Source: Lachnospiraceae bacterium (lineage in GTDB: Bacteria; Bacillota; Clostridia; Lachnospirales; Lachnospiraceae). Taken from it: 64,000 nt of DNA. The notes under the pieces are model-generated. The model saw only the letters and a program-made list of their open reading frames with translations, was not told where the DNA came from and did not search any database. Below, in pieces: positions 14,349 to 41,854 of this stretch (positions within the stretch are counted from its first letter, which is position 1; each line of letters starts with the position of its first letter). The stretch is from assembly GCA_022510545.1 (NCBI GenBank), contig JAFLTG010000003.1, positions 4,662-68,661 of the forward strand. The letters are read 5' to 3'. Made by a program: the position numbers and the translations under genes.

Positions 14349-16922
14349 ATGAGAAAACAATGGAAACAAAACGCAATATCGTTCGCGTTGCCCATAATGA
14401 TTTTGATTATGATTTTTATGGTATGGGGTAAGTATCCATTTGGGGAAAATACCCTTCTTATATGGGATATGGATGAGCAGTATGCTCCATTTTTTATACA
14501 TCTTCACGATATTTTGCATGGAGACGCTTCAGCATTGTACTCCTTTTCGAGGGCGCTTGGAGGAAATATGTTAAGCGTTGCATCATACTATCTGATCAGT
14601 CCCTTTAATCTTATTTTTTATTTTTTTGATGCGGAAAATATCTATGTCGGAGTATTTCTTGTTATAGTACTTAAGATCGGGATGTGCGGATATTCCATGC
14701 ATTGGTTTTTAAACCGGAAATGGCATGATATGTCCGCAATTATTTTTTCTACGTCTTATGCGCTTTGTGCTTACGTAATAGAGAATCAGTTCAATATATT
14801 TTGGATAGATGCCATGATTCTTTTACCGCTTGTGTGTGAAGGGATAGAGAGACTGGTGGACGAGCGGAAATATCTGCTTTATACTTTGTCGATAGCCTTT
14901 GCGGTAATTACAAATTTTTATACAGGGTATATGATATGCATATTTTCAGTTCTGTATTTTATATGTTATTTCTTCTTTATTTCAGATAAAAAATATCGGG
15001 TTAATACAATTATTATTTATGTGGCAGCTTCACTTATGGGAGGTATGCTATCTATGTGCCTATCCCTGCCTGCAATGGAGATAATGCAGAATGGAAAGAC
15101 CGGCATTTCACTCAGTATACTTAAAAATTTCAAAAATATGTTTAAATACCGAGAACTTTTTGATGTTATGTTCTGTGCCACATTAAGTGATAGACTTATA
15201 AACGCGCGCAGACCTCTTATTTACTGTGGCATATTTGCAATTATTATGGGGGTGTACTGGTTTATTCAGGGTAAGGAAGCAGTCAGAAAAAAACTTGCAT
15301 ATCTTTTGCTCCTGTTTGCAATCGTGGTGTCATTCCATCACTTTAATCTGGATTGTGTATGGCATGCATTCAATTCGCCTACCGGCTCACCGCATAGATA
15401 TTCATTTATATACGTGTTTCTTGTCCTGTATATTGCATATAAAGGATATATCAGTCTGAAAGATATGAATACTGATGATAAAAAAGACAATGCTAAGACT
15501 GCCATATGGACATATATAAAGAATCTCAAAAAAAGTGACAAAAGTGTCATTTTTGTCATTGGACTTATACTATGCTTGGGACTTCTTGGCCGAGCAGGCT
15601 CATTTATGGAAATTCAAAAAACCAATATAGTGGTGCTTAGCATATTTCTGATAGCCGTATATGCGGCAATACTTCTGTTTATTAAAAACAAGGCATTAAA
15701 AACTTTGTTGATACTATTCTTTACCTGCGCGGAACTTTTTGTAAATGCGCAGTGGCAGTATATGAGTTCGGAACGGTATTATACATCCATAAGTGTTGAC
15801 GAATATCAGGCTTATATGCAGGACATGCTTCCCCTTGTAGAAAGGGCCAAAAATGATGAGGCTGAAAATGATGGGATAGCCCGTACTGCCATAGAAAGAA
15901 GCGCCCGCAGAACTTCTAACGACCCATTTTTGTTCAGTATATACGGTCTGGACTCCTATACATCGATGGAGAAGCAGAATGTAATAAATATAGCCGGGAA
16001 TTTTGGGTATTCCAATAATATAACCTGGGGTATGCACTATAACAACGGTTCAACTAAGGCAGCAGAGGCGTTATTAGGCGTAAAATACCTTATATCAGGT
16101 AAAAATCCGGGAGTGGGTTACAATAAACTGGAAGAGACAGATGAATTTGCAATTTATAAAAACGAAAATACGCTGCCGTTTGCATTTATTGCAGATGCAT
16201 CAATTTTAGAAATCCAAAGTACTGACGATACTTTCAAATATACGAATGAGCTGTATCAAAGTCTGGATGTAGAGCAGAAAGAAGATATTCTTATAAAAAT
16301 TGCCTCAGAAGAGGTTCCTTCGCAGCCTTCATATTTGGAATATGAATATAAAACTGATTTGGAAATGACAGTGTATACACGTTATGACAGAGCCGGGATT
16401 TCCAAGGCAGAAGCGTATATTGATGACGAACTGATTGACTTGAGCAGTCAACGAAGCGATGTAAAATGCATTGGCATACTGCCTGCAGAAGCGGAATTTA
16501 GACTTCGTTTTTATCTGCCGGAGGATGGAAGTTTTTCCACTGATAAAATATTTGTCTATGGAGAGCGAGGGGATATGCTTAAAGCATATGCTAGAGATGT
16601 TAATACCCAGCCTGTAAATATAACTATGCATAATGAAGCATATATTGAAATCTCATGCGCCAATGAAGACAATGAAGCTAAGTATCTGCTTTGTACAATA
16701 CCATATGATAAGAGCTGGAGAGTCAAGGTGGATGGTAAAAGAGCAGAAATACTGGATGCACAGAATTTCGTTGCCATACCGATTGAAAGCGGAAATCATG
16801 AAGTTGAGCTTAAATTCATTCCAAGAGGTCTGTATATTGGCATACTGGTGACACTTGTGTCAGTTTTTGTTTTGATTTTAATTGAATTTCTTAGAAAAAA
16901 ATGGTATTCTAAAATAAGTTAA
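14349..16922 (+). CDS. YfhO family GT-C-like membrane protein
   Basis: LLIWDMDEQYAPFFIHLHDILHG, SRALGGNMLSVASYYLISPFNLIFYFF, PYDKSWRVKVDGKRAEI; 857 aa with C-terminal extracytoplasmic domain. Confidence 0.85.
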   Translation: MRKQWKQNAISFALPIMILIMIFMVWGKYPFGENTLLIWDMDEQYAPFFIHLHDILHGDASALYSFSRALGGNMLSVASYYLISPFNLIFYFFDAENIYVGVFLVIVLKIGMCGYSMHWFLNRKWHDMSAIIFSTSYALCAYVIENQFNIFWIDAMILLPLVCEGIERLVDERKYLLYTLSIAFAVITNFYTGYMICIFSVLYFICYFFFISDKKYRVNTIIIYVAASLMGGMLSMCLSLPAMEIMQNGKTGISLSILKNFKNMFKYRELFDVMFCATLSDRLINARRPLIYCGIFAIIMGVYWFIQGKEAVRKKLAYLLLLFAIVVSFHHFNLDCVWHAFNSPTGSPHRYSFIYVFLVLYIAYKGYISLKDMNTDDKKDNAKTAIWTYIKNLKKSDKSVIFVIGLILCLGLLGRAGSFMEIQKTNIVVLSIFLIAVYAAILLFIKNKALKTLLILFFTCAELFVNAQWQYMSSERYYTSISVDEYQAYMQDMLPLVERAKNDEAENDGIARTAIERSARRTSNDPFLFSIYGLDSYTSMEKQNVINIAGNFGYSNNITWGMHYNNGSTKAAEALLGVKYLISGKNPGVGYNKLEETDEFAIYKNENTLPFAFIADASILEIQSTDDTFKYTNELYQSLDVEQKEDILIKIASEEVPSQPSYLEYEYKTDLEMTVYTRYDRAGISKAEAYIDDELIDLSSQRSDVKCIGILPAEAEFRLRFYLPEDGSFSTDKIFVYGERGDMLKAYARDVNTQPVNITMHNEAYIEISCANEDNEAKYLLCTIPYDKSWRVKVDGKRAEILDAQNFVAIPIESGNHEVELKFIPRGLYIGILVTLVSVFVLILIEFLRKKWYSKIS
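15536..15549. repeat. Intragenic palindrome TGACA-N4-TGTCA (TGACAAAAGTGTCA)
   Basis: Exact match to the pattern within the YfhO-like CDS. Confidence 0.75.
16849..16862. repeat. Intragenic palindrome TGACACTTGTGTCA
   Basis: Exact reverse complement of the copies at 34808 and 41770. Confidence 0.75.
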
Positions 16923-16950
16923 AAAATAAAATTTAACTTTTCTAAAATAA
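16907..16950. repeat. 11-bp direct repeats TTCTAAAATAA flanking an AAGTTAAA...TTTAACTT inverted repeat
   Basis: TTCTAAAATAA at 16907-16917 and 16940-16950; inverted arms 16916-16923 and 16932-16939. Confidence 0.6.
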
Positions 16951-16967
16951 AGGTATGGTTATTTGTT

Positions 16968-18380
16968 ATGAACCGAAAAAGGAAGATTATAGAAGGCTAT
17001 TATCTGCTTTTTACAGATCTTGTAAGCATTACTATAGCCTATGTGATTGCAATCTTAATACGTTATCATAAGTTTAGCAGAGTTATGGAACCTGAGCTGC
17101 ATTTTCTGGTATATGTTTGCTTTCTGCTGTTTTGTACCATTTACAGTTTTATGCTTGACTGGAACCGGGAGTTTTTGACCAGAGGAGTATTTGTTGAATT
17201 TATTGCGGTACTTAAGTTCAACATTTTTATGCTGCTTGCGGTTGCCAGCCTGCTTTTTATGTTGCAGCAGGGTGAGAAGTTTTCCAGAGGTGTGTGGGGC
17301 TACTTTGCTGTTTTTGATATGGTCATAGTCTGGGCTGTACGCCTGTTTATGAAAAAACTGCTTAAGGCATATTTTACTTCCAAGTCCAATATTGTCAAGA
17401 TAATGGTCATTGCCAAAGACGCAGTACTTAGCAAGACTCTTACCAGTCTGAAACAAAATTTGGATATCGAATATGAAATCGTAGCACTCGCCTGCGTGGA
17501 TGTGGACAGAAAAGGAGTGGTCATCGGAGGAGTAAAAGTAACGGCCGATGGCTCTAATGTGCTTGAGATTGCAAGGCAGATTCCGCTTGATGAAGTATTT
17601 ATAAATCTGCCGGATGAAGATAAGGACTATGTGAAGCATATTATATACGATTTAGAATCTATGGGAATAGTGTGTCATTACAATATTGATGTTATTGACA
17701 GGATTCAGAAAGAGACCAGAGTAGGGCGGTTTGCAGGATATACAGTTATAACCTATTCCCTCAACAATTTTGATTATCGCCGAATGCTTATAAAACGCGT
17801 AATAGATATAGCGGGGGGCTTGATTGGCCTTATAATAACGGCTTTTATCACACCGTTTGCGGCAATCGCTATTAAGCTGGATTCCCCGGGGCCGGTATTT
17901 TTTGCTCAGACTAGGATTGGAAAAAACGGAAGACGTTTTAAAATATACAAATTCCGCTCAATGTATATAGATGCAGAAGAACGAAAAAAAGAACTTGAAG
18001 CGCAGAATGAAATGCAAGGTTTGATGTTCAAGATGGAGAACGATCCTCGTATAACCAAAGTGGGAAAATTCTTGCGTAAGACAAGCCTTGATGAACTTCC
18101 GCAGTTTTATAATATTGTCAAAGGCGATATGAGTCTGGTTGGCACAAGACCGCCCACAGAAGATGAATTTGAACAGTACAATTCTCATTATAGAAGACGC
18201 ATCAGCATGACTCCCGGTCTGACCGGATTATGGCAGATCAGCGGCCGCAGTGACATTGCTGATTTTGATGACGTGGTAAAATATGATCTGGAATATATAG
18301 ATAACTGGACACTGGGACTGGATATTAAAATCCTGTTCCAGACAGTCTGGGTAGTGTTGACCGGAAAGGGGTCGAAATAG
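16968..18380 (+). CDS. Undecaprenyl-phosphate sugar phosphotransferase (polyprenyl glycosylphosphotransferase, WcaJ/CpsE type)
   Basis: KRVIDIAGGLIGLI, DSPGPVFFAQTRIGKNGRRFKIYKFRSM, LRKTSLDELPQFYNIVKGDMSLVGTRPP, PGLTGLWQISGRSD. Confidence 0.94.
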   Translation: MNRKRKIIEGYYLLFTDLVSITIAYVIAILIRYHKFSRVMEPELHFLVYVCFLLFCTIYSFMLDWNREFLTRGVFVEFIAVLKFNIFMLLAVASLLFMLQQGEKFSRGVWGYFAVFDMVIVWAVRLFMKKLLKAYFTSKSNIVKIMVIAKDAVLSKTLTSLKQNLDIEYEIVALACVDVDRKGVVIGGVKVTADGSNVLEIARQIPLDEVFINLPDEDKDYVKHIIYDLESMGIVCHYNIDVIDRIQKETRVGRFAGYTVITYSLNNFDYRRMLIKRVIDIAGGLIGLIITAFITPFAAIAIKLDSPGPVFFAQTRIGKNGRRFKIYKFRSMYIDAEERKKELEAQNEMQGLMFKMENDPRITKVGKFLRKTSLDELPQFYNIVKGDMSLVGTRPPTEDEFEQYNSHYRRRISMTPGLTGLWQISGRSDIADFDDVVKYDLEYIDNWTLGLDIKILFQTVWVVLTGKGSK

Positions 18381-18420
18381 GGTTTGTACTGCAGTCAAAT
18401 GCCGTAGTCGAGAGGAAAAT

Positions 18421-19488
18421 ATGGATGCTAAATTGAATGTTGTCATGATTGGCGCTGACAGGAGTGTGCACGGAGGTGTTTCGGCAGTCGTCAATAATTA
18501 TTACAAAGCAGGATTGGATAAAAGGGTAAACCTTCACTATATAGGCACAATGGTAAACGGAAGTAAGTTCCGCAAATTATTGCGTGCTTTTACTTCCTAT
18601 TTACGTTTCCTGACTGTATTGCCGCAGATGGATATTCTGCATGTAAATATGGCAGCAGACGCAAGTTTCTACCGTAAAAAGATTTTCATTGATACAGCCG
18701 CCTTTTTTCATAAAAAAATATTAATCCATGAACATGGAGGAGATTTTCAAAGCTTTTATTATGAAAAAAATAACGAAAGCGGCAGACGTTTAATCAGAAA
18801 AACCTTAAACAAAGCGCAGGTATTTGTGGTTCTTTCACAGAGCTGGGCAGATTTCTTTAAACCAATCGTAAATAAAGAAAAAATAGTAATCCTCGAAAAC
18901 GCCGTACTTATTCCACCAGAACCCAAGACTTCATACAACGATCATAACCTCTTATTTCTGGGAAGACTATGTAAGGAAAAAGGAATTGAAGAACTGCTTG
19001 ATGCAGTCTCCATTATTTCACAAAAATATCCGGACATCCGTTTATATCTTGGTGGAATTTGGGAAGATGATAATCTGAAAAATAAGGCAGATGCCCTCAA
19101 AAAGCATGTTAAATATCTTGGATGGATAAATGATAAGAAGAAAGAACGCTGCATGGAAAAATGCAGTATCTTTGTGCTACCAACATATTTTGAAGGCCAG
19201 CCTATATCATTACTTGAGGCAATGGCAAAAGGAATGACGGTTGTCAGTACAGAAGTTGGAGGTATTCCGCAGATTGTGACAAGCGGTCGGGATGGTATAC
19301 TTATTCCACCTAAGGATACTCAAGTTTTAGCGAAGAGTATATGCGAACTGCTGGATGATACGGATACAAAGAAACAATTAGGTATAAATGCAAGAGACAG
19401 AGTGACACAGTCATACAATATTCGGGAACGTGTGGATGAACTGGTTGCGATATATGCAAATATGATGCAGGGGGACAACTATGAGTAA
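18421..19488 (+). CDS. Glycosyltransferase family 4 protein
   Basis: DRSVHGGVSAVVNNYY, LFLGRLCKEKGIEELLDAV, EGQPISLLEAMAKGMTVVSTEVGGIPQIV. Confidence 0.92.
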   Translation: MDAKLNVVMIGADRSVHGGVSAVVNNYYKAGLDKRVNLHYIGTMVNGSKFRKLLRAFTSYLRFLTVLPQMDILHVNMAADASFYRKKIFIDTAAFFHKKILIHEHGGDFQSFYYEKNNESGRRLIRKTLNKAQVFVVLSQSWADFFKPIVNKEKIVILENAVLIPPEPKTSYNDHNLLFLGRLCKEKGIEELLDAVSIISQKYPDIRLYLGGIWEDDNLKNKADALKKHVKYLGWINDKKKERCMEKCSIFVLPTYFEGQPISLLEAMAKGMTVVSTEVGGIPQIVTSGRDGILIPPKDTQVLAKSICELLDDTDTKKQLGINARDRVTQSYNIRERVDELVAIYANMMQGDNYE

Positions 19489-20503
19489 CCAAAATTATAA
19501 AATCAGCATAATCGTTCCGGTATACAATAGCAGCGAATACTTAGAGCAATGTGTTGACAGCATCCTGCTGCAGACTTACGAAAACCTTGAATTGCTTTTG
19601 ATAGACGACGAATCCAAAGACCAAAGTGGTGAAATCTGCGACAGATATGCAGCCGAGGACGGCAGGGTAAGAGTCATCCACCAGAAAAACGCAGGCTGTA
19701 CCGCAGCGAGCCTGACAGGCTTAAGAGAGGCGTCCGGCGATTACTATATGTTTATTGACAGTGATGACTATGTTGATATAGATATGCTTGCACAGATGAG
19801 CAAACATTTGATTGGTAAAAAGGGCGAAATTGTATGCTGTAATCATATTCTGGAAAAACAGAAGCAGACGATTCTTGCAGCATCACCGGCTGCACCCGGT
19901 GTATATGAGGGAGCAAAACTTAAAAGGGAAATAAAGGATAAACTTCTCGGAAATGAACAGCGTATTGTTCCGATATCACGCTGCATGAAATTGTATGAGA
20001 AATCTGTTTTTGAGGGAAATACTAAATACTGTGATACGCAAATACGTATGGGTGAAGATTTTAACATTGTATTTCCGGTACTTTTAGACTGCAGCAGAAT
20101 AGTAGTTATGGACAAAGCCTTTTTCTATCACTACCGTTATGTTGAAACATCTATGGCACACTGCTATGACACAGACATGATGGACAGTGTCAACCGCCTT
20201 GAAAACTTCTTAAGGACAGTCATAGAGGACAAAAAAGTAGAAAACGGCGAACTTTTAATACGTAAAGAATACTGCTGTATGCTCCTGTTGGTAATGAAAA
20301 ACGAACTTCGCAATCCGGACAAGAACTATATGGAGAATATACAGAATATATTCAAAGATGATAAAATTAGAGAGATAATTGATAGTACGGATATTATAGT
20401 CCGGGAAAAAGCCAATATGATTCTTTATATTGGACTAAAACACACAAATAAACCTATAATATGGATACTACGCTGTATTATGAAATTATATGATAAAAAA
20501 TAG
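19481..20503 (+). CDS. Glycosyltransferase family 2 protein
   Basis: ISIIVPVYNSSEYLEQCVDSILLQTYENLELLLIDDESKDQSG, FIDSDDYVD. Confidence 0.92.
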   Translation: MSNQNYKISIIVPVYNSSEYLEQCVDSILLQTYENLELLLIDDESKDQSGEICDRYAAEDGRVRVIHQKNAGCTAASLTGLREASGDYYMFIDSDDYVDIDMLAQMSKHLIGKKGEIVCCNHILEKQKQTILAASPAAPGVYEGAKLKREIKDKLLGNEQRIVPISRCMKLYEKSVFEGNTKYCDTQIRMGEDFNIVFPVLLDCSRIVVMDKAFFYHYRYVETSMAHCYDTDMMDSVNRLENFLRTVIEDKKVENGELLIRKEYCCMLLLVMKNELRNPDKNYMENIQNIFKDDKIREIIDSTDIIVREKANMILYIGLKHTNKPIIWILRCIMKLYDKK

Positions 20504-20538
20504 TTGTTTTATAACCCACACCGAAAGGAACCACAACC

Positions 20539-21720
20539 TTGAATAACCGACTAATACTATACCTCCACGGCGGAAGCGGCAATCACGGCTGTGAAGCAAT
20601 CGTCAACAGTACCTGCCATATGCTTGAGGATATCCCCAAACTTCTCGTTACAAACAGCGAGAAAGAGGATAGGCAATATTCGCTTTCCCCGTTGTGCGAT
20701 ATTTTACAGGAACGAAAAATAGATGAGCATTTTTTTGCACATGTCTGGTATTATGGATGGAGAGCGCTTTTTCATGATCCGGAATCATTTATGCGATACC
20801 GTTTCCGCAACATAATGGGCAAAAATCTTGCACCTTTGTATGTGTCAATAGGCGGAGACATGTACTGTTATGATGTGTCCAAAAAGGAAGCAATTCTGGC
20901 GAACCGTACCTTTAACAGGGCAGGGGCTAAAACCATTCTCTGGGGCTGTTCCATAGAGCCGGAGCTGCTAAAAGATGCAGAGGTTGTGGAGGATATGAAG
21001 CGGTATATGCTTATAACACCGCGGGAATCTATTACGCTGCAGGCCTTAAAGGATGCGGGGATTATAGAGAATGTCAAACTGTTTCCCGACCCGGCATTTG
21101 CTCTTGAACCGAAGGAGATTGAACTGCCGGGAAACTTTATTGAGGGCAGGACGATAGGTATAAATATCAGCCCGATGATAGTTAGTTATGAAAAAGAAAA
21201 GGGAATTGCGATTGCCAATTATAAGAAACTTATAGATTATATTTTACAGACTTCGGATAACAGTGTGGCACTCATACCTCACGTTGTCTGGAAGAATAAT
21301 GATGACAGGATGACCCTTGCCGAACTTTATCGTGGATATGAGGAAAATGACAGGGTTGTCAGTTTTTCGGATATGTCCTGTCAGAACATAAAATATGTTA
21401 TTTCTAAATGTAAGGCTTTTATCGGAGCCAGAACACATGCCACTATTGCCGCATATTCAAGCACAGTGCCGACACTGGTTGTGGGATATTCGGTGAAAGC
21501 ACTTGGAATAGCAAGAGATATATTTGGAAGTGAGGAAAACTACGTGTTGCCGGTTCAAAGTTTACAGGATCCGGGTGAACTCATTAAAGCTTATGATTGG
21601 CTTATGGAAAATGAAGAAATGATACGGGGGCGGCTTAAGGAAATTATGCCGGATTACTGTGAAAGGGCAGCAAAAGCGGGGGACGAGATTCGCAGGATAT
21701 GGAAACAGGTAACAACATAA
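20539..21720 (+). CDS. Polysaccharide pyruvyl transferase family protein
   Basis: LHGGSGNHGCEAIV, SIGGDMYCYD, GCSIEPELLKD, LITPRESITLQALKDAG, FIGARTHATIAAYSSTVPTLVVGYSVKALGIARD; TTG start. Confidence 0.88.
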   Translation: MNNRLILYLHGGSGNHGCEAIVNSTCHMLEDIPKLLVTNSEKEDRQYSLSPLCDILQERKIDEHFFAHVWYYGWRALFHDPESFMRYRFRNIMGKNLAPLYVSIGGDMYCYDVSKKEAILANRTFNRAGAKTILWGCSIEPELLKDAEVVEDMKRYMLITPRESITLQALKDAGIIENVKLFPDPAFALEPKEIELPGNFIEGRTIGINISPMIVSYEKEKGIAIANYKKLIDYILQTSDNSVALIPHVVWKNNDDRMTLAELYRGYEENDRVVSFSDMSCQNIKYVISKCKAFIGARTHATIAAYSSTVPTLVVGYSVKALGIARDIFGSEENYVLPVQSLQDPGELIKAYDWLMENEEMIRGRLKEIMPDYCERAAKAGDEIRRIWKQVTT

Positions 21721-22763
21721 ATTCCAATTTAATAAGCATAATTGTCCCGATTTATAACGGTCAGGATTACATTGACAGATGTGTCGGAAGTATTCTTGAG
21801 CAGACTTATACGGAGTGGGAACTTCTTTTAATGGATGGAGCATCGTCCGACGACTCGCCACGGCTTTGCGATGAATGGCAGAGAAAGGATGATCGGATAC
21901 GCGCCTTTCATTCTACGGAGTACCGCGGGGTTTCAAAGGGGCGGAATACAGGACTACGTGAAGCTTCAGGCGCCTATATCATGTTTGTGGATGTGGATGA
22001 CTGGCTGCTTCCGGACTGTATTCAGAGACTATATGACGACATACAAAAACCAAGTGTGCAGATAGCGGGCTGCGGGTTTAGAATCTGCAATGACGAAGAC
22101 TGGAAAGAGCAGTTGTCAGGTAGAGAAACAGAGACAATGTCCGGAGTTGATTTTTCCAGAAATGATTCAACTGTAAAATTAATAGCCGGCAAGGATTTCC
22201 TGCGTGAGGGAATTCTTAAGCGTGATACCCGCTGCTGGAGCAAGCTTTATAGAAGAGAACTGATAGAAGGACATTTCTTTAACGAGGCTTATACAATCGG
22301 AGAAGATATGCTGTTTGTCTGGGAAACTGCAAGAGAGGCAGAATATATAAGTTCAAGCGATTATGCAGGCTATTGTTATTACCGTAATCCGAAGGGAGCT
22401 ATGCTTAAAAGGTTTAGGGAATCTGATATTGATCAGATAAGATGCTGGCAGTTCTTATTGCAAAGCCTGCTGGCAGAAAACGGAAAAGGAGGAAATTATG
22501 ACACTGATGTCATAATTGCAGCAGCAACCAATCTCTTGATATCCTGTATGTTGGTTGCAGGAAAACTTGCAGTATTGCCGGGTGAGGAACGTAAGCAGTA
22601 TGCTGACATAAATAAGCAATGCAGGGGTGTTTTAAAGGAAACTCTTCGAATAAAAGGTGCGTATGCCGGATTGGACAAAGGTTATCGGATTAAGGTGAGT
22701 CTCTATAAGCTGTTTCCCGATTTATACTTGAATTTATACCATATTTTGAAGGCGGGAAAATAG
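21699..22763 (+). CDS. Glycosyltransferase family 2 protein
   Basis: ISIIVPIYNGQDYIDRCVGSILEQTYTEWELLLMDGASSDDSP, SKGRNTGL, FVDVDDWLL. Confidence 0.92.
   Translation: METGNNINSNLISIIVPIYNGQDYIDRCVGSILEQTYTEWELLLMDGASSDDSPRLCDEWQRKDDRIRAFHSTEYRGVSKGRNTGLREASGAYIMFVDVDDWLLPDCIQRLYDDIQKPSVQIAGCGFRICNDEDWKEQLSGRETETMSGVDFSRNDSTVKLIAGKDFLREGILKRDTRCWSKLYRRELIEGHFFNEAYTIGEDMLFVWETAREAEYISSSDYAGYCYYRNPKGAMLKRFRESDIDQIRCWQFLLQSLLAENGKGGNYDTDVIIAAATNLLISCMLVAGKLAVLPGEERKQYADINKQCRGVLKETLRIKGAYAGLDKGYRIKVSLYKLFPDLYLNLYHILKAGK
22499..22512. repeat. Intragenic palindrome TGACACTGATGTCA
   Basis: Exact match to TGACA-N4-TGTCA inside a GT2 CDS. Confidence 0.75.
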
Positions 22764-29921: not shown

Positions 29922-31844
29922 ATGAACAAAGATTTAACGTATTGCAGAATTTTAAAAACTGACATCAATGTCACAAATATGTCAGATACCATTAACTATA
30001 TCACAGAGAATCTGGATGCTTTAAGAGGTAACTACATCTGCGTTTCCAACGTGCATACGACGGTAATGTCATTTCGTGATGCGAAGTACCGTAAAATCCA
30101 GAATGGCGGTGCAATGGCATTGCCCGACGGACAACCGCTTTCGATTGTGAGCCGTATGAGGGGATATCATAATGCCAGAAGAGTTCCGGGACCGGATTTG
30201 ATGCCGGCTATTTTGAAACTTTCTGAAGAAAAGGGTTATACCCACTATTTTTATGGAAGTACGGAAGATACCCTTTCAGAATTGAAAAAGGCGATTTTAA
30301 AAGCTTATCCGGCACTGCAGATTGCCGGAATGTATGCGCCGCCTTTTAGGGAGCTGACTAAGGAAGAGGACGAGCAGATTGTAGCAAAAATCAATGAATC
30401 TAAACCGGATTTCGTTTGGGTGGCTCTTGGTGCGCCTAAGCAGGAAATCTGGATGTATGATCATAAAGACAGGGTAAACGGTCTTATGATTGGCGTGGGA
30501 GCCGCATTTGATTTTATAGCAGGAACGGTGAAGAGGGCTCCGATGTGGATGCAGAAGCTGTGTCTGGAATGGGTATTTCGCATTATTCAGGATCCTAAAA
30601 GGATGATTCCCAGATATCTGAATACAAATTTTGCATTTTTATATCATACCCATAGGGAAAATGTATATTTAAGCAAGAAAAGAAAACAAAAGAAAAAAGC
30701 CGGTAAAAAACTGAAAATTGCAATGATAGGGCATAAGAGGATACCGTCAAGGGAAGGCGGTATAGAGATTGTTGTAGATGAGCTGTCTGTCAGACTGGCA
30801 AAAATGGGGCATAAAATTGATGCCTATAACAGATATGGTCATCATGTCTCCGGTAAGAAGTATGATGAGGAATACGGACGAGGAGACAGAAAATACTATA
30901 AAGGAATCAGGATACGTATAATACCTACCTTTAGAAGCAGCAAATTAAATGCTATTGTATATTCGTTTCTGGCAACGCTCCGGGCCCTTTTTATACCTTA
31001 TGATGTAATGCATTATCATGCCGAAGGCCCCTGCGCTATGCTGTGGATACCTAAATTGTTCGGTAAAAAGGTGGTCGTAACGGTTCACGGTCTGGACTGG
31101 CAGCGGGCAAAGTGGGGAAGATTCGCCTCTTTTGTAATTAAATTCGGTGAGAAAATGGCGGCAAAATATGCTGATGAAGTCATAGTATTATCTAAGAATG
31201 TGCAAGATTATTTTAAAGATACTTATGGACGAAATACTGTGTTTATTCCGAATGGAATTGACAGGCCGGAAAAACGAAAGGCTGAATTAATAACGGAGAA
31301 ATACGGGCTTGAAGAAAACGGTTATTTCCTCTTTCTCGCAAGGATTGTTCCGGAAAAAGGTGCTCATTATCTGATTGAGGCATTCCGCGGCATTGATACG
31401 GATAAGAAACTGGTGATTGCGGGCGGCAGCAGTCAGGCATTTGATTATATGGAAAAAATTCACCGCATGGCGGCTGAAGATGATAGAGTTATTATGACCG
31501 ATTTTGTGCAGGGACAGATTCTGGAAGAATTGTATTCCAATGCCTATGCTTTTGTACTGCCAAGTGATGTGGAGGGAATGGCGCTTTCGCTATTGGAGGC
31601 AATGAGTTACGGAAACTGTTGTCTGGTAAGTGATATCAGTGAAAATACGGAAGTGACAGAGGATAAAGCCCTTGTTTTTGAAAAGGGCAATATAGACGAT
31701 TTGAAAAATAAGCTGGAATATATGCTTCAGAATCCTGAAAAAGTGGAAGAATATAAGAAACAGAGCAGTGATTATATATGTGGGAAGTATAATTGGGATG
31801 ATGTTGTTGGGCAGACTGTAGAGATATATTCCCGGTGTAGATAG
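29922..31844 (+). CDS. Fusion protein: N-terminal WecG/TagA/CpsF (GT26) and C-terminal GT4 (DUF1972/Cps2T-like)
   Basis: N-terminus: NVHTTVMSF, ALPDGQPLS, RVPGPDLMPAI, GAPKQEIWM, GVGAAFDFIAGTVKRAPMWMQ. C-terminus: IGHKRIPSREGGIEIVV, HAEGPCAML, FLARIVPEKGAHYLIEAF. Confidence 0.9.
   Translation: MNKDLTYCRILKTDINVTNMSDTINYITENLDALRGNYICVSNVHTTVMSFRDAKYRKIQNGGAMALPDGQPLSIVSRMRGYHNARRVPGPDLMPAILKLSEEKGYTHYFYGSTEDTLSELKKAILKAYPALQIAGMYAPPFRELTKEEDEQIVAKINESKPDFVWVALGAPKQEIWMYDHKDRVNGLMIGVGAAFDFIAGTVKRAPMWMQKLCLEWVFRIIQDPKRMIPRYLNTNFAFLYHTHRENVYLSKKRKQKKKAGKKLKIAMIGHKRIPSREGGIEIVVDELSVRLAKMGHKIDAYNRYGHHVSGKKYDEEYGRGDRKYYKGIRIRIIPTFRSSKLNAIVYSFLATLRALFIPYDVMHYHAEGPCAMLWIPKLFGKKVVVTVHGLDWQRAKWGRFASFVIKFGEKMAAKYADEVIVLSKNVQDYFKDTYGRNTVFIPNGIDRPEKRKAELITEKYGLEENGYFLFLARIVPEKGAHYLIEAFRGIDTDKKLVIAGGSSQAFDYMEKIHRMAAEDDRVIMTDFVQGQILEELYSNAYAFVLPSDVEGMALSLLEAMSYGNCCLVSDISENTEVTEDKALVFEKGNIDDLKNKLEYMLQNPEKVEEYKKQSSDYICGKYNWDDVVGQTVEIYSRCR
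29960..29973. repeat. Intragenic palindrome TGACATCAATGTCA
   Basis: Exact match (6-bp arms) inside the TagA-GT4 CDS. Confidence 0.75.
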
Positions 31845-33175: not shown

Positions 33176-33179
33176 GAGA

Positions 33180-34187
33180 TTGGCAAGAAGAACTTTGTAC
33201 GGAACCGTAATCGTGACATATAGATGCAATGCGCACTGCAATATGTGTGACTGCTTCCGTGACCCGTCAAGACCGGAAGAGGAAATCACCCTTGAAGATA
33301 TTAAGAAGCTGCCGGAAATGGCATTTACCAATATTACCGGCGGTGAGCCTTTTGTCAGACAGGATATACCGGATATAGTCAGGGAGCTTTATAAAAAATC
33401 TGACAGGATTGTCATTTCTACAAACGGTTATTTTACCGATAGAATCATAGCTCTCTGTAAGGAATTTCCCAAGGTTGGAATCCGTATCAGTATAGAAGGC
33501 CTGCAGGAGACAAATGATGCGATAAGGGGCATTCCCGACGGTTTCAACAGAGGTTACAATACATTAAAGACTCTGGTTGAAATGAAACATCCTGATGTCG
33601 GTTTTGGTATGACGGTACAGGATATGAACTGCGAAGACCTTGTGCCGCTTTATAATATTGCCAATGATATGGGTATGGAGTTTGCAACCGCAACCTTGCA
33701 TAACTCCTTTTATTTCAGAAAGACAGACAATAAGATTGACGATAAACTCAAAGTATCACGCAATTTTGAAAAGCTTATAAACGAGCTTTTGAAGTCTAAA
33801 TCACCTAAGAAATGGTTCAGAGCCTATTTTAATCATGGGCTTATTAATTATATATACGGCAATAAGAGACTTTTGCCCTGCGATATGTCAAAGAACGCAT
33901 TCTTCATAGATCCGTTTTGTGATGTTATACCTTGTAACGGTATGGAGAAAAAGGCGGTTATGGGAAATCTGCGTGAGCAAAGCTGGGACGAGCTGTGGAA
34001 TTCCAAACAGGCGGAGGAGGTCCGTAAGTGTACTAAGGAGTGCGACAGGAATTGCTGGATGATAGGAAGTGCATCGCCTGCCATGCATAAGTATATATGG
34101 GTACCGGCCTGGTGGGTGGTGAAACATAAGTTCTTCAAGCGCGGGAAGTATAGCCTTAAAGAAAATAAGTTTATTGAGAATATTTAA
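33180..34187 (+). CDS. Radical SAM protein with SPASM-like C-terminus
   Basis: TYRCNAHCNMC (CxxxCxxC), FTNITGGEPFVRQDI, VISTNGY; C-terminal CDVIPCNGM and CTKECDRNCW. Start uncertain (TTG 33180 or GTG 33150). Confidence 0.85.
   Translation: MARRTLYGTVIVTYRCNAHCNMCDCFRDPSRPEEEITLEDIKKLPEMAFTNITGGEPFVRQDIPDIVRELYKKSDRIVISTNGYFTDRIIALCKEFPKVGIRISIEGLQETNDAIRGIPDGFNRGYNTLKTLVEMKHPDVGFGMTVQDMNCEDLVPLYNIANDMGMEFATATLHNSFYFRKTDNKIDDKLKVSRNFEKLINELLKSKSPKKWFRAYFNHGLINYIYGNKRLLPCDMSKNAFFIDPFCDVIPCNGMEKKAVMGNLREQSWDELWNSKQAEEVRKCTKECDRNCWMIGSASPAMHKYIWVPAWWVVKHKFFKRGKYSLKENKFIENI
33401..33414. repeat. Intragenic palindrome TGACAGGATTGTCA
   Basis: Exact match inside the radical SAM CDS. Confidence 0.75.
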
Positions 34188-34238: not shown

Positions 34239-35336
34239 ATGGGGCGTTTGAAAAATAAGATAGAACAATTAAAATTTGCAATATATTGTTTCAAAAAGGG
34301 GCAGGATAGCCGATTTGTAAAAACCGTGAAACAGCTCACCGATAAAAATAATCTGATATATGTAGAATCGTACGGTGATAAACAAAATGACGATACCGTT
34401 TTTTTCATAGATATGGAGGAGTCACATTCAGGTTTTTTTGCCGAGCATAATCGTTTGCTTGCCATGCTTTATTTTGCGGATAAGTATGATATGAAGCCGG
34501 TGGTGAGGTATCACAAAGGTTATTGCTATGCGGAGAAGCAGCCTGTAAACGGGACTACCAATCCTTTTGAGTATTATTTTGAACAGCCTGCGGGGATAGG
34601 GTTGAAGGAGCTTAAGTCGTTTAAGCGGGTATTCAGGAGCAGAAAAGAGAATAGCTACGAAGTAAATAAGCTTTGTGATGACCCGAACGGATATACCAGA
34701 AGTGAAGAGTATTTAAATGAGATGGCGAGGATTACGGCTAAATATATTCGTCTTAATTCTATAGTAAAAGAAAGAATGGATGAAGAAATCTTAGGATTGC
34801 TCAAAAATGACACAAGTGTCACAAATGATTCGGCTGTTATAACTGATGGAAGTGACATAGATGGAAAAGCAATCAAGGTTCTGGCTGTACATGTAAGGGG
34901 AACGGATTTTAAGCAGAACTTCAACGGGCATCCCGTGAGTGTGGGTACTGACGAATATCTGGAAATGACTGTACGTACATTTGAAAATGGCGGTTATGAA
35001 AAGGTATTTCTGGCTACGGATGACAGTGAAGCACTGAATAAATACCGGAAACAGTTTGGCAATAAATTGGTGTTCTATCAGGATGTGGTAAGAAGCGACG
35101 GTAATGATACGGTAATGCACAGCCAGATGTCCAGGGAAAACCACCATTATCTGCTTGGATATGAGGTGCTAAGGGATATGTATACGCTTGCAGCCTGCGA
35201 CGGATTGATTGCAGGTCTGTCTCAGGTAAGTTATGCCGCCCGTATACAGAAGAAGAGTACCGGTAAGGAATACAGCGATTTAATAATACTGAATAAGGGA
35301 ATCAATTATCATAAGAAAAATAACTGTCCTTCATAA
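34239..35336 (+). CDS. O-/alpha-1,6-fucosyltransferase-like (GT-B) protein
   Basis: VLAVHVRGTDFKQNF, VFLATDDSEALNKYRKQFG and YEVLRDMYTLAACDGLIAGLSQVS resemble the NodZ/FUT8/POFUT-like motifs. Confidence 0.6.
   Translation: MGRLKNKIEQLKFAIYCFKKGQDSRFVKTVKQLTDKNNLIYVESYGDKQNDDTVFFIDMEESHSGFFAEHNRLLAMLYFADKYDMKPVVRYHKGYCYAEKQPVNGTTNPFEYYFEQPAGIGLKELKSFKRVFRSRKENSYEVNKLCDDPNGYTRSEEYLNEMARITAKYIRLNSIVKERMDEEILGLLKNDTSVTNDSAVITDGSDIDGKAIKVLAVHVRGTDFKQNFNGHPVSVGTDEYLEMTVRTFENGGYEKVFLATDDSEALNKYRKQFGNKLVFYQDVVRSDGNDTVMHSQMSRENHHYLLGYEVLRDMYTLAACDGLIAGLSQVSYAARIQKKSTGKEYSDLIILNKGINYHKKNNCPS
34808..34821. repeat. Intragenic palindrome TGACACAAGTGTCA
   Basis: Exact match inside the fucosyltransferase-like CDS; identical to 41770..41783. 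Confidence 0.78.
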
Positions 35337-35391
35337 AAACTTTGGTGTTCCATCTATTGATAAGGATGTTAAAAAGGGAGTAAAAATAACC

Positions 35392-37149
35392 GTGATAAAA
35401 CAACTGTCTTATATATTTAACCGTAAAGAAAAAATAAAGATTTTTATTTTATTTATAGTGGCAGTTATCGGAAGTCTGCTTGAGTGCGCCAGCGTAGGCG
35501 TTTTTCAGCCGTTTGTGGAGTTGTTTATGGACCCTGCGGCGATACAGGGAAATGAATATCTGAATTACGCATATAATCTATTTGATTTTCAATCATCCAA
35601 AGATTTCCTTAGCGCAATGGCTATTGTAATTATGGCTATTTTTATAATCAAGAACATATATCTTATTATTGAAAAATATGCTATATATACTTTTTCATAT
35701 AATGTGCAGATGAAGATATCTACAGGTTTGCTCAAGGCTTATGTCAGCGAACCTTATACTTTTCATCTGAATAAAAATATCTCTGTTCTTCAAAGGAGCG
35801 TACAGGAGGACTCAGACCTTTTTACCAAGGCAATCATACATTTTATGGAACTGGTAGTGGAAGTTATGGTATGTATCGCACTTGGGATTTATCTTTTTGA
35901 CGTCAGTAAGTCGATAACGGTTATAGTAGTAAGCCTTCTTATCATCTGTGTAGGAATATTTACTGCGATCTCCAGGAAGTTTGCAAGAGAACTTGGAAAA
36001 GACGCCCAGGAATATAAGGCAAAACTTTATCAGTGGATGAATCAGTCACTTGGCGGCATAAAGGAAGTTAAGGTTCTAAACAGAGAGATGTTCTTTATCA
36101 ATTCTTATTCGGGATATTTTAAGAAGTATGTTAAAGGACTTAAGGTAAGCAGATTGATAGGGGCAATACCTAAGTATATAGTTGAAATGGTAAGTATAGC
36201 CGGACTCTTGCTTGCGCTGATAGTTAAAATAAATTACGGACAGACGAGTGACCTTGCGGTATTTGTTCCGCAGCTTTCGGCTTTCGCGGTTGCGGCATTT
36301 AGGCTTTTGCCTTCCATTGGACGTATTAACGAGCACGTTACCGGTATCATGTATGCGGCACCGTCCATCGAACTTGTCTATCATGACCTGAAAGAGGTAG
36401 AGAACATAAAGAGTCTGGAAAGCCGTGAAGAAGGAGTGCTTTCACTGGAAAATGAGCTGGTTATAAAAGATGTATGTTATCATTATCCCGATAATGAAGA
36501 TAATGTAATTGATTTTGCAAACTTTACAATTAAAAAAGGTCAGACAGTAGCTTTGATAGGAGAATCCGGAGCCGGCAAGACTACTATGGCGGATATTATT
36601 CTGGGTCTGCTCACTCCTCAGTATGGAAAAATTAATGCGGATGGCGTAAATATTTTTAAAAATATGGATAAGTGGCACCATGGCATCGGATACATCCCTC
36701 AGACCATATATCTGTCTGACGATACAATTCGCAACAATGTAGCGTTTGGTGTCAATGAAGATGAGATTGACGATGCAGCGATAGAAAATGCGCTAAAAAA
36801 AGCACAGCTCTGGAATTTTGTAGAAGGTTTAAACGATGGACTCGAGACCTTCGTAGGTGACAGAGGTGTCAGGTTGTCCGGCGGACAAAGACAGCGAATC
36901 GGTATAGCGAGAGCGCTTTATCATGATCCCGAAATCCTGATTCTGGACGAGGCTACCTCTGCTCTGGATAATGACACCGAGGCTGCGGTAATGGAGGCCA
37001 TAGAAAACCTGCGTGGTGAAAAAACAATGATCATTATAGCCCACAGACTCACCACAATTCGCAATGCGGATATGATCTACGAGGTTGCGGAGGGTAAAGT
37101 TGAGCCAAGGAGCAAACAAGATGTTCTTCATCAAAATTCCGCGGATTAA
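35392..37149 (+). CDS. ABC transporter (fused permease/ATPase), PglK/MsbA-like polysaccharide flippase, paralogue of 8504..10294
   Basis: Walker A GESGAGKTT, LSGGQRQRIGIARALYHDPEILILDEATSALD; TM domain aligns with the first ABC gene by eye. Confidence 0.9.
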   Translation: MIKQLSYIFNRKEKIKIFILFIVAVIGSLLECASVGVFQPFVELFMDPAAIQGNEYLNYAYNLFDFQSSKDFLSAMAIVIMAIFIIKNIYLIIEKYAIYTFSYNVQMKISTGLLKAYVSEPYTFHLNKNISVLQRSVQEDSDLFTKAIIHFMELVVEVMVCIALGIYLFDVSKSITVIVVSLLIICVGIFTAISRKFARELGKDAQEYKAKLYQWMNQSLGGIKEVKVLNREMFFINSYSGYFKKYVKGLKVSRLIGAIPKYIVEMVSIAGLLLALIVKINYGQTSDLAVFVPQLSAFAVAAFRLLPSIGRINEHVTGIMYAAPSIELVYHDLKEVENIKSLESREEGVLSLENELVIKDVCYHYPDNEDNVIDFANFTIKKGQTVALIGESGAGKTTMADIILGLLTPQYGKINADGVNIFKNMDKWHHGIGYIPQTIYLSDDTIRNNVAFGVNEDEIDDAAIENALKKAQLWNFVEGLNDGLETFVGDRGVRLSGGQRQRIGIARALYHDPEILILDEATSALDNDTEAAVMEAIENLRGEKTMIIIAHRLTTIRNADMIYEVAEGKVEPRSKQDVLHQNSAD

Positions 37150-37197
37150 GAGATCGTGAAAATTATTGCAGATTGAGGGAAAGGTATAGGGATTGAT

Positions 37198-38070
37198 ATG
37201 GATATTAAGAGATTAGTCAAAGACATATTGGCACAGATTGATTACTCCCTATATCGTGCAAACTTAAAAAAATACAATATCAAGGTGCATACAATTGAGG
37301 AAACAATAGACGAGCTTATAAATACTGATAAAAGCCTGATAAGATACGGTGACGGTGAAATAACTATGATACGCGGCAGAAGTCTGTTGCTTCAACAGGT
37401 GGAGCCGGAACTTATAGAAGGACTTAAACGCCTGCTTGCATATGACCATGACGACCTTATAATCGCCATACCTGAAATCTTTGGCGATCTGTCAATTTAT
37501 ATTAAAAAAAGCCGGATGTTCTGGAAAGACCATTTGCTTTTCAGTCGTAAGTATTATGAAAAATACTGCAATCCGGACAGGGAATACTATAATGCTTTTA
37601 TATCCAGATTTTATTATTTTTACGATGATAAAAGTAAATGTGCCTCGTGGATAGAGAGGATGAAGCAAATCTGGAAAGACAAAGATGTGGTAGTGGTAGA
37701 AGGAGGACGCACCCACAATGGCGTGGGAAATGATTTGCTTGACAGCGCCGGAACGGTGGAGAGAATAATAGGTCCAAGCAGTGATGCTTACGCCAAGCTG
37801 GATGAAATAATGGAATGCTGTAGACAATATCCTAAAGACAGGCTGTTTCTTATATCCCTTGGCATTGCTGCGAAATTCCTTGCTGAACGGCTTTTTCTGG
37901 AAGGTTACCGTGCCCTGGATATCGGGCATCTGGATATGGAGTATGAATGGTTTCTTAACAAGGTAAACAAAAAAGAAAAGATACCTAAGCATGACGTAAT
38001 CGGGGAAGAAGCGAACTTGAACGCAGGCTATACGGAATATTTATCACAGATAAAATACCGTGTGGAATAG
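37198..38070 (+). CDS. GT-D fold (DUF1792) glycosyltransferase
   Basis: LIRYGDGEITMIRGR, VVVEGGRTHNGVGNDL, RLFLISLGIAAKFLAERLFLEGYRALDIGHLDMEYEWFL. Confidence 0.78.
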   Translation: MDIKRLVKDILAQIDYSLYRANLKKYNIKVHTIEETIDELINTDKSLIRYGDGEITMIRGRSLLLQQVEPELIEGLKRLLAYDHDDLIIAIPEIFGDLSIYIKKSRMFWKDHLLFSRKYYEKYCNPDREYYNAFISRFYYFYDDKSKCASWIERMKQIWKDKDVVVVEGGRTHNGVGNDLLDSAGTVERIIGPSSDAYAKLDEIMECCRQYPKDRLFLISLGIAAKFLAERLFLEGYRALDIGHLDMEYEWFLNKVNKKEKIPKHDVIGEEANLNAGYTEYLSQIKYRVE

Positions 38071-38145
38071 TTGAATCTGAACTCTTGAAGGAGTAGATAG
38101 AAGCTTGTGCCTAATGTTTGAGAATACAAGGAAGGTTTACTAACT

Positions 38146-39291
38146 ATGAAAGTAATATACATGTCACACAGATATCATACAAACCAGACCACTATAATGA
38201 AGGGCTGGAAAGAGAATGGGCATGAGGTCAGATTCCTCAGCCAGTATGCCGGGAAGATTGAGGACTATGCCTATGTAAAACCTATTGTGGTAGGCTACTC
38301 GGCACTTTTCAGGGCATTTGATTATATATATATAAATTTTTTGAGAAGAAAAGATCCCGCCGCAATCGATATGAAGCTGAAACTTGGCATACCGCCGATT
38401 TTTAAGCTGGCTAAATATATTAAAGAATTTAACCCTGACTTGGCGATTATCAGGGAGCGCTCCATATATACCATATGCATGAATGCGATATGCAGGCACT
38501 ATAAAATTCCGACGATAATATATAATCTGAGTCCTGTCTGGGATAAGCCCAAGAAGATGGATCTGGCACATAAGATTGTGTGGAAGCTTACTCCCAAGTA
38601 CAGGATTACTCCGACGAACCTGGTAGGTATAGATTTTACGGGACTGGTTAAGGATGAGAATGCATACTGGGCGCCGTTTTTGATGGAGCCGCAGCTTCCG
38701 CCCGAGAAGAAAACCTATTTTGCAAATGATAGAATCAATATCTTCTGTATCGGCAAGTATCAGGAGCGCAAGAATCATCAGATGATGATAGAGGCAGTAG
38801 AAGAGCTGCTTCCAAAGTATGACCTTCATCTGACGATTGCAGGTGAAATGTCTAATCATTTTCATGAAGAATATTTTAAAAAAATTAATGATTATGTAAA
38901 AGCGCATAAGCTGGAGGATAGATTGACTTTCCTGGTCAATCTAAACAGAAAAGAGATAGCGAAAGAATACGAAAAAGCAGACGTATATGTGGTTCCAAGT
39001 ACCGGTGAACCGGCATCCATAACTGTTATAGAGGCAATGGCTTATTCTGTGCCTGCCATCAGCGGAAGCGATAACGGAACCGCAAGCTATATAGATTACG
39101 GCAAGACAGGCTATGTCTTTGAAGATAACAATAAAGAGGATTTGAAGGACAAGCTTGAGAAGATAATATGTGACAGGGATAATCTTGTCAAAATGGGCGC
39201 CGCGGGATATAAGCATGTGGAGGATAACTTCCAGTTTAAGAATTATTATGAGCAGATAGAGGCTATCAGAAAGAGGCGTGAACAGGAGTAA
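38146..39291 (+). CDS. Glycosyltransferase family 4 protein
   Basis: IFCIGKYQERKNHQMMIEAVEEL, LTIAGEMSNHFHEEYF, VVPSTGEPASITVIEAMAYSVPAISG. Confidence 0.9.
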   Translation: MKVIYMSHRYHTNQTTIMKGWKENGHEVRFLSQYAGKIEDYAYVKPIVVGYSALFRAFDYIYINFLRRKDPAAIDMKLKLGIPPIFKLAKYIKEFNPDLAIIRERSIYTICMNAICRHYKIPTIIYNLSPVWDKPKKMDLAHKIVWKLTPKYRITPTNLVGIDFTGLVKDENAYWAPFLMEPQLPPEKKTYFANDRINIFCIGKYQERKNHQMMIEAVEELLPKYDLHLTIAGEMSNHFHEEYFKKINDYVKAHKLEDRLTFLVNLNRKEIAKEYEKADVYVVPSTGEPASITVIEAMAYSVPAISGSDNGTASYIDYGKTGYVFEDNNKEDLKDKLEKIICDRDNLVKMGAAGYKHVEDNFQFKNYYEQIEAIRKRREQE

Positions 39292-39310
39292 GCTAAGAGA
39301 GAGGAAGTAT

Positions 39311-41854
39311 ATGACGTTTATAAATCGGATGAAAAGCAGTTTTAAGGTTTCATATTTAATTAATATAATATTTATTGCCCTTATTTTTACTGCCTGTTTG
39401 TGGGATGTTGGATCTCTTGAGAGGATAAGGGTAGTGGATGATGGCTTTTGTTATTGGGGAATAGCGGCAACTCTTTCAGGTTATGACTGGATAGACCTCA
39501 TATCCGGCTGTGCATACTATTCGTATGGCTATAGTATTGTTTTGATTCCTTTGTTCTGGCTGTATAGATTGGGAATATCCATGACTGTTCTTTACCGGAT
39601 TTCAATTGTGCTCAACGCATTTTTTTTAATTGGAATCTATTTTATGACGTTGTATATGCTTAAAGAATTGTTTAAAGAATTTCCGGATGTATTAAAACAT
39701 ATTATAGGCTTTTTTGTTACGTTGTATATAGGAAATGTTGCTCAAATGGGACTGGCATGGTCTGAAACATTTTTATGCTTTATGTTCTGGTGTGTCATTG
39801 TCTGTCTTTACCGCGTGCTCAGGAAACCGGGATACGGAAATCTTTTGGGTTTAGCTGCTTCGTCAGCGGCCTTGTTTGCAATTCATATGCGCTCCATTGG
39901 AGTGTTGATTGCAGTCATTTTGATCATCTTATGTTTCTTCATAACTCACAGGAAAGAAATAAATAAAAAATATATTATTTATACCATAGGCATTTCGGCA
40001 TTTTTCTGCTGTCTGATTCTTGTGATGAAAGGTTATGTTAGTAACAATATTTATCTTGGTAATGCTGAATCCTCTACCAATAATGTACAGGCAGGTATAT
40101 CCCGCGTTGGAAGACTGTTTAGTATTAACGGCCTTATGGATTTTGCAGTAAGCGTTATAGGAAAGCTTTATTATATCAGTTCAGCCACTTTTATGTTGGC
40201 TGTAATTGGAGCCTTAGCAGCGCTCATAAGCATCATCTGCAGTTTGAGAAAGAAAGGATCAATGGCCAGGCGGGAAAAATGGCAGAAAAAAGAGTGGATG
40301 ACAGTATTTTTTCTTTTATCCCTTCTGGCAGAAGTCGGAATAGAGGCATTATTTCAGTGCTATTCATTTTTCAGAGTGGCGGGAGCCGTTGGCAGAGATG
40401 ATGCGCTTGCATTCGGGCGTTATGCGGACTTTGTTATTGGACCGATGCTCATTTTGGGCGTATGGACTGTATATAATTTGAGAGAACATTATAAAGAAAT
40501 CTTATTCTGCGTTCTTATAACAATTGCCGCTACCGGAATTGTTCAATTTTTCTATAATATAATAGAATTTCGTAAAGGGCATGATTCTGTCTCGTTCAGA
40601 TTTGCTGCTTCTCCGTGGCTGTCGGTGATAGCCACCGGACACAATACTGATTTTGCCTGTTATGTGACGCTGATTAGTATTTCGGTGCTTTTATTGCTCT
40701 GTCTGACAAGACTTTTTTCAAAAATAAAATGGTATGGTTTTGGCGTAATATTACTGGTTATGACTGCGGTATGGAGTGTTCTTGGTGTAAAAGGAGGAAT
40801 GGAATATACAGCCGCTAAGACAGATAAAGTAAAGCTTGTAGATACCGTTGCAGAGATTATAGAGACAACAGGGGCAGAGACACCTGTTTATATGATTGGA
40901 CAGCCCAACACAGAGGTGAAGATTCTACAGTGGCTTCTTGCAAAACGTAGTATTCATACCTGCGATTTGGAGAATATAGATGATATTGATATGGCGCATG
41001 CTGTCTTATTGGGGAATTCCAATGAAGCAGAGACGGTGGCCAAACTCAGTGACCGGTTGGAGCTTTTGTATGATGCAGGCAGTATTTCCGTATTTGCAAA
41101 TAAGGAGAATAAATTATACGAAAAGCTGTCCGCAAAGGCAAAAGAAATGACATTCGTGTCAGATGATACGGTTAACAAGCTGTCACTATCTGATCTGGTA
41201 ACTGACTTGAGTTATACAAATATGATGGGGCAAATGTTTTATAATTACCAATCATCTGATGGCGGATATATGACGAAAGAAACGGGTGTCATATCAGGAG
41301 ATGGAATTTATGAATTTGTAATTGATATGCGTGCCACTGAGTGTGAACCGAATACAGAAATAGGCTATATCACCGTAGGTGATGTTAATGGCAATATTCA
41401 GTATACGCAGAGTCTGAGTGCAAATGATTTTATTGAGAGACCGCGGCAGGATATCAGTGTTTTGGTAGAAGTGAAGGATTGGATAGAACCTGTCGTCGGA
41501 CTTTATACAAATGGAAAGGCTGCGATTAATGTATTTAATATCTCATATAGAAAAAAAACAGGCAATATACAGCTTGATTCGGAAGAAATTGCAGAGATTG
41601 CTGCATTTCTAGGAGAGCAGGACCAAAAAGAAGTATATTATATTGATAGTGACAATAGCGGGCTTACAGGCTTTCCATGGTGGGAATATGGAGACCTAAA
41701 ATATCTGTCGGGGAATATTATTGCGTATAAAGAAAACTTTGAAGATTCTCAATATATCGCCGAAAAAACTGACACAAGTGTCATTAATGCTTTAAAAGCT
41801 ATTATGGAGCCACTATATGAGACAGAAGGATACATTGTTTTAGCCACTCATTAA
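39311..41854 (+). CDS. Large GT-C-like membrane protein with C-terminal extracytoplasmic domain
   Basis: N-terminal multi-TM, DDGFCYWGIAATLSGYDW, YYSYGYSIVLIPLFWL; ATG 39311 with RBS gagagaggaag upstream. Confidence 0.55.
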   Translation: MTFINRMKSSFKVSYLINIIFIALIFTACLWDVGSLERIRVVDDGFCYWGIAATLSGYDWIDLISGCAYYSYGYSIVLIPLFWLYRLGISMTVLYRISIVLNAFFLIGIYFMTLYMLKELFKEFPDVLKHIIGFFVTLYIGNVAQMGLAWSETFLCFMFWCVIVCLYRVLRKPGYGNLLGLAASSAALFAIHMRSIGVLIAVILIILCFFITHRKEINKKYIIYTIGISAFFCCLILVMKGYVSNNIYLGNAESSTNNVQAGISRVGRLFSINGLMDFAVSVIGKLYYISSATFMLAVIGALAALISIICSLRKKGSMARREKWQKKEWMTVFFLLSLLAEVGIEALFQCYSFFRVAGAVGRDDALAFGRYADFVIGPMLILGVWTVYNLREHYKEILFCVLITIAATGIVQFFYNIIEFRKGHDSVSFRFAASPWLSVIATGHNTDFACYVTLISISVLLLLCLTRLFSKIKWYGFGVILLVMTAVWSVLGVKGGMEYTAAKTDKVKLVDTVAEIIETTGAETPVYMIGQPNTEVKILQWLLAKRSIHTCDLENIDDIDMAHAVLLGNSNEAETVAKLSDRLELLYDAGSISVFANKENKLYEKLSAKAKEMTFVSDDTVNKLSLSDLVTDLSYTNMMGQMFYNYQSSDGGYMTKETGVISGDGIYEFVIDMRATECEPNTEIGYITVGDVNGNIQYTQSLSANDFIERPRQDISVLVEVKDWIEPVVGLYTNGKAAINVFNISYRKKTGNIQLDSEEIAEIAAFLGEQDQKEVYYIDSDNSGLTGFPWWEYGDLKYLSGNIIAYKENFEDSQYIAEKTDTSVINALKAIMEPLYETEGYIVLATH
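41770..41783. repeat. Intragenic palindrome TGACACAAGTGTCA
   Basis: Exact match near the 3' end of the GT-C-like CDS; identical to 34808..34821. Confidence 0.78.

Follow-up and report, generated by a model that had tools for sequence, protein, structure and literature searches.

Terminus-depleted TGACAN4TGTCA palindromes and a candidate TetR-family binder: a possible nucleoid-occlusion system in Lachnospiraceae

The palindrome TGACAN4TGTCA occurs 159 times in the draft genome of a Lachnospiraceae bacterium (a MAG of 2.85 Mb in 178 contigs), against four copies of the reversed control, and in three genera it is under-represented toward the terminus, as judged from synteny-based mapping of draft genomes. 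We rate at slightly below even odds the reading that the sites belong to a new nucleoid-occlusion system, shared by much of the Lachnospiraceae, whose TetR protein, encoded beside purL and not related to SlmA, would act through up to ~175 sites to link division to the completion of segregation. To the broader reading, an SlmA-like system of a TetR protein and its sites that is putative at the protein level, we give an even chance.

Results

The window, meaning the whole 64,000-nt stretch of DNA that was analyzed (positions 1-64000), carries ~47 ORFs, all on the + strand and nearly all part of one very large surface-polysaccharide region with glycosyltransferases, a flippase-like protein, pyruvyl transferase, two ABC transporters, and LTA-synthase-like and YfhO-type membrane proteins. 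TGACAN4TGTCA is present in 14 exact copies, where 0.04 are expected, and all 14 are intragenic in a window that is 97.7% coding. The leftmost, TGACAGATATGTCA (317-330), lies in the ORF at 16-774, followed by TGACAGAGGTGTCA (10030-10043) in an ABC transporter gene, TGACAAAAGTGTCA (15536-15549) in a YfhO-family gene, TGACACTTGTGTCA (16849-16862) near the 3' end of the YfhO-family gene, TGACAGGGTTGTCA (21348-21361) in a polysaccharide pyruvyl transferase gene, and TGACACTGATGTCA (22499-22512) in a family 2 glycosyltransferase gene. Further along are TGACATCAATGTCA (29960-29973) at the start of a WecG/TagA-GT4 fusion gene, TGACAGGATTGTCA (33401-33414) in a radical SAM/SPASM gene, TGACACAAGTGTCA (34808-34821) in a 365-aa ORF at 34239-35336, and a second copy of TGACAGAGGTGTCA (36858-36871) in another ABC transporter-type gene. 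The 858-aa ORF at 39278-41854 holds both TGACATTCGTGTCA (41148-41161) and TGACACAAGTGTCA (41770-41783), and a DUF6020 gene likewise holds two sites, TGACACTACTGTCA (55488-55501) and TGACATGAGTGTCA (56838-56851). The two TGACAGAGGTGTCA sites fall in paralogous transporters, and because both encode GDRGVR of the ABC signature region, their conservation may be partly protein-driven.

The original prediction had drawn attention to one 14-mer, TGACACAAGTGTCA, found at 34808 and 41770 on the + strand and as its reverse complement TGACACTTGTGTCA at 16849. The positions and the identity are exact, but the identity itself is unremarkable: given the N4 preferences of the motif, the probability that some 14-mer appears at least three times among 14 sites is 0.095, so the three copies are ordinary draws from the motif.

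In the 1.21 Mb of the genome that was read directly, we counted 88 TGACAN4TGTCA sites against 1.15 expected. The spacer of 4 is fixed, since other spacers (0-3 and 5-15) yield only 0-4 copies each in the same DNA. One-mismatch versions are mildly over-represented there (93 seen, summed expectation ~37), chiefly through the CGACA/TGTCG and TGACG/CGTCA classes; the former is the most enriched (14 seen vs. 1.2 expected), and a probable weak site of this class, TGACAGATGTGTCG, lies in the window at 21773-21786. A strict core surrounded by graded variants looks like a protein-binding site. An extra half-site in 9-bp register was seen in 7 cases against ~2.8 expected, a marginal excess; in the window, extra half-sites occur 9 bp on from the 15536 site and 11 bp on from the 29960 site.

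It had also been proposed that the unit exceeds the palindrome, in the form A5-6, N0-3, TGACA-N4-TGTCA, and genome-wide the enrichment in A is indeed far above base composition. When palindromic half-sites were compared with 2658 other TGACA words of the same DNA, A-runs of at least 4 within 8 bp accompanied 23% of the former and 3.8% of the latter (p ~2e-18), and the mean number of A in positions -6 to -2 was 2.3 vs. 1.5 (p = 2e-15). Further, T stands at -1 in 3% of the palindromic half-sites vs. 30% of the other words, and A/T at both -2 and -3 in 79% vs. 40%, so that the flank can be described by position: -1 is not T, -2 and -3 are A/T, -5 is A at 56%, and -6 and -4 are A-rich, while the first base of the spacer avoids A in the source genome (9%). 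The flank is symmetric, A-rich on the left and T-rich on the right, and the one-sided unit proposed earlier is therefore half of a palindrome. A unit longer than the core is thus upheld, with the amendment that its flank is two-sided and set at fixed positions rather than being a one-sided, floating A-tract; in the source genome the extended unit reads approximately AAAWWV-TGACA-BNNV-TGTCA-BWWTTT. The A-runs of 5-7 are present where they had been placed, at 15536 (7 A on the left, with 5 T on the right), 29960, 33401 (A6), 34808 (A5) and 41770 (A6), as well as at 16849 and 55488 on the reverse strand (the latter with T6 in its right flank). The site at 21348 has A4 on the left and T5 on the right, and those at 10030 and 36858 have no A-run of that kind. 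In a second motif-rich genus, represented by genome G176 (L207-L221), the core is unchanged but constraint on the flank and on the first base of the spacer is looser, which suggests a drift in the fine specificity of the putative binder.

Placement is blind to genes. Of the 88 sites in the 1.21 Mb, 83 lie inside ORFs, which make up 92.6% of the sequence, and intergenic enrichment was not found (5/88 sites vs. 7.4% non-coding), which speaks against a conventional regulon with promoter operators. The host genes are unrelated: in the window they encode transporters, glycosyltransferases and YfhO-type membrane proteins, and elsewhere in the genome they are varied and housekeeping-looking, by names read from sequence. 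Some sites are clustered, such as three in a 27-bp tandem repeat within a 1358-aa ORF of the same genome (L030:7654-7721, contig C57), five in 2.1 kb (L035:9772-11906) and ten in 17 kb (L077:1662-19038).

These observations bear on whether the sites might serve a global transcription factor with an unusual number of intragenic sites, either a CusR/CopR-type response regulator or a TetR protein acting as a transcription regulator only. A literature search with the consensus returned plant WHIRLY papers, S. aureus GraSR and the CusR/CopR box, and the published consensus of P. aeruginosa CopR and E. coli CusR is identical to our motif, TGACA-N4-TGTCA (PMC12428095); moreover, SlmA in Vibrio also controls transcription (PMC5519180). 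However, the CusR/CopR box belongs to copper-gene promoters of Proteobacteria, whereas the sites described here are intragenic and genome-wide, and a transcription factor accounts neither for the lack of intergenic enrichment, nor for host genes without a common function, nor for the depletion at the terminus. We consider this explanation unlikely.

The palindrome could also act as RNA, since 5-bp arms with a 4-base loop could fold, and a transposable element or a mutational artefact was considered too, since repeats of the HIP1 type exist. Yet compensatory pairing was not found, the opposite flank positions and N4 pairing no more often than in shuffled controls, so the symmetry is of the DNA type and not of the RNA type, and on this absence of covariation an RNA hairpin element was rejected. 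The copies share nothing beyond the motif and sit in frame within intact genes, and neither the graded one-mismatch variants nor the terminus depletion is expected of such an element; we regard the whole group of explanations as very improbable. From an intragenic share equal to coding density, together with the lack of RNA-type covariation, we infer that TGACAN4TGTCA is a DNA site for a putative dimeric protein.

Individual contigs of the source genome carry between 0 and 25 sites per 100 kb. Too few anchors were shared with G176 to order the draft directly against it, so contigs were placed through reciprocal best hits in stretches sampled from Kineothrix alysoides; there, spo0J and skew locate the origin (C2, ~1.06 Mb) and the terminus (C1, ~1.42 Mb). 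On this map, which is that of another genus and offers 1-14 syntenic anchors per contig, the origin half of the source genome holds 66 sites in 581 kb (11.4 per 100 kb) and the terminus half 12 sites in 461 kb (2.6 per 100 kb; contig-permutation p = 0.0002). Unpaired half-sites are nearly level, at 250 and 225 per 100 kb in the origin and terminus halves, respectively. The contrast in paired sites persists when only contigs with at least 3 anchors are used (9.5 vs. 2.8 per 100 kb), and the four contigs closest to the terminus carry 2 sites in 197 kb. By a single anchor, the contig of the window maps ~1 Mb from the origin.

Depletion is also seen in an independent genus and in Kineothrix. G176 has large contigs, with dnaA at ~C7:604 kb and the strand switch in C6 at 20-100 kb; along its one resolved arm, successive thirds hold 12, 14 and 2 sites (p ~0.001-0.006), and the terminus side, the first 291 kb of C6, is free of them. 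The 9 extended-motif sites of Kineothrix are all confined to C3 and the contig of the origin; its 2.3-Mb terminus contig has 0. This distribution does not fit MatP/matS, despite a likeness in that matS is also a short TGAC...GTCA palindrome repeated along the chromosome: matS sites are found only around the terminus, the opposite of what we observe. Gene-blind placement and enrichment on the origin side would also fit a chromosome-folding or segregation site (for condensin, topoisomerase or a membrane anchor) that is independent of division timing. Nothing supports such a role specifically, however, and ParABS-parS already lies near the origin, as usual, so that we think it rather improbable.

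The motif is restricted to a clade within the Lachnospiraceae. All 38 members of the genus (the source and 37 others searched) are motif-rich, with 17-175 copies; in a family sample of one genome from each of 199 Lachnospiraceae genera, ~20 genera are rich (at least 20 copies) and most others are near chance level, and in 24 further families of the order the counts are 0-7. Given that the 99% complete genome of one genus member, G005, contains no more than 17 sites, a large number of them is not essential. Certain intragenic sites occupy equivalent positions in different genera; two instances are those in a DacA-like gene and in an HD-GYP gene next to serS. Because the genomes are related in sequence, this conservation is suggestive only, as is a codon-level test of these two sites, which is confounded by relatedness. 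The site in the HD-GYP gene, near the origin, keeps its position in many species (L108:12056, L109:11945 and orthologues) and in L146 and L137 persists despite an amino-acid change.

To look for a binder, we collected proteins of two transcription-factor families from two motif-rich genomes and tested those that both genomes conserve against a panel of 28 genomes, 17 motif-rich and 11 motif-poor. One TetR protein was present in 17/17 motif-rich and 0/11 motif-poor genomes at 47-88% identity, counts that ignore phylogeny. Two other conserved TetR proteins co-occurred more weakly and were set aside (14/17 vs. 0/11 for the second, 14/17 vs. 2/11 for the third); all three had been searched as a single joined query and were separated by query coordinates. 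On co-occurrence only, the first of these is the best candidate binder. It is ~194 aa long and exceeds the cut-offs of PF00440 and PF17922 in three genera; Kineothrix alysoides encodes an orthologue too. At each of the three loci read, its gene stands between a 5' neighbour of 150-185 aa and a 3' neighbour that is purL-like, with the FGAR-AT linker domain present in the copy tested. Against this candidate stands that TetR proteins as a rule repress locally. At both the G120 and the G176 locus the TetR gene contains a site, at the identical codon position, and ~70-75 bp upstream of the operon there is a one-mismatch site flanked by A/T, while at the G244 locus no site was found in or near the gene. 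Sites at its own operon in two of three loci, the one in G176 having been fetched because it holds a site and its count being thus ascertained, point only indirectly to TGACAN4TGTCA binding by this protein. The G244 orthologue matches no NCBIfam SlmA model at 1e-3, and SlmA is not among the named PDB matches of the G120 protein.

A binder from another protein family could be at work instead. Noc as binder was rejected, as no Noc-like ParB paralog, that is, no second chromosomal ParB-type protein besides Spo0J, was found among 22 motif-rich genomes: 20 of these have one strong HTH_ParB match, as expected for Spo0J, the exceptions being G256, with two adjacent matches of equal score, and G097, with none. 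A further candidate is a RacA-like MerR protein with a MerR_1 domain, a probable coiled coil and a basic tail (L282 of G120, L283 of G244), which could bind the sites to anchor or organize the chromosome. This protein is conserved among all tested members of the genus and of the Kineothrix group; RacA ranks second among its PDB matches and shares the wing motif ERNExGH with it, and it matches the NCBIfam RacA model weakly (31 bits, cut-off 170). The ram site of Bacillus subtilis RacA, TGACGCCGCGTCA, has a TGAC half-site as in our motif, but its spacing is off by 1 bp. The protein is missing from 8/17 motif-rich genomes (G176, G250, G195, G140, G197, G124, G160 and G247), for which it was rejected as binder, and G176 shows terminus depletion without it; it was matched in 116/200 sampled Lachnospiraceae genomes, among them more than 100 genera that are mostly motif-poor. 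We give this alternative a low probability.

Discussion

In the literature, Noc and SlmA sites are marked by a palindrome that is repeated tens of times and depleted at the terminus (PMC4726725; PMC4117426). In Ter, both the ~70 sites of Noc, a 14-bp palindrome, and the 24-52 sites of SlmA, a TetR protein, are underrepresented (PMC4726725). The terminus depletion, copy number and palindromic form of the sites described here match those of nucleoid-occlusion sites. As in Bacillus subtilis Noc, the unit is a terminus-depleted 14-bp palindrome; the site sequence differs, and Noc is a ParB paralog of a kind not found here. The likeness to SlmA of Escherichia coli extends to the protein, both SlmA and the candidate being of the TetR family, yet the candidate is unrelated beyond that superfamily, the host is a Firmicute, and the SlmA consensus, GTGAGTACTCAC, is a different sequence. 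SlmA acts on FtsZ, and by analogy the candidate would do so too.

How such a system might operate can be outlined on this model. The sites would form a chromosome-wide set for one dimeric, sequence-specific DNA-binding protein, for which the TetR-family regulator (PF00440 and PF17922) encoded directly upstream of purL is the best candidate. They would regulate no particular gene set, and would be intragenic because the chromosome is nearly all genes. The protein would coat most of the chromosome except the terminus region, so that its activity would mark the unsegregated nucleoid, and its likeliest use would be that of SlmA and Noc, with division (FtsZ) inhibited or guided until the terminus is left at mid-cell. 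Binding, autoregulation and a role in division are what we infer for the candidate from the known systems.

No such division-site factor in Lachnospiraceae was described in the literature searched, and how Clostridia without Noc hold the septum off the chromosome is apparently undescribed. The site list, the test of distribution and the single candidate gene now named make the question directly testable. If the proposed system is real, terminus-depleted palindromes with a sequence-specific inhibitor would have arisen at least a third time, and the principle of SlmA and Noc would have been invented independently in gut Firmicutes in which no Noc was found.
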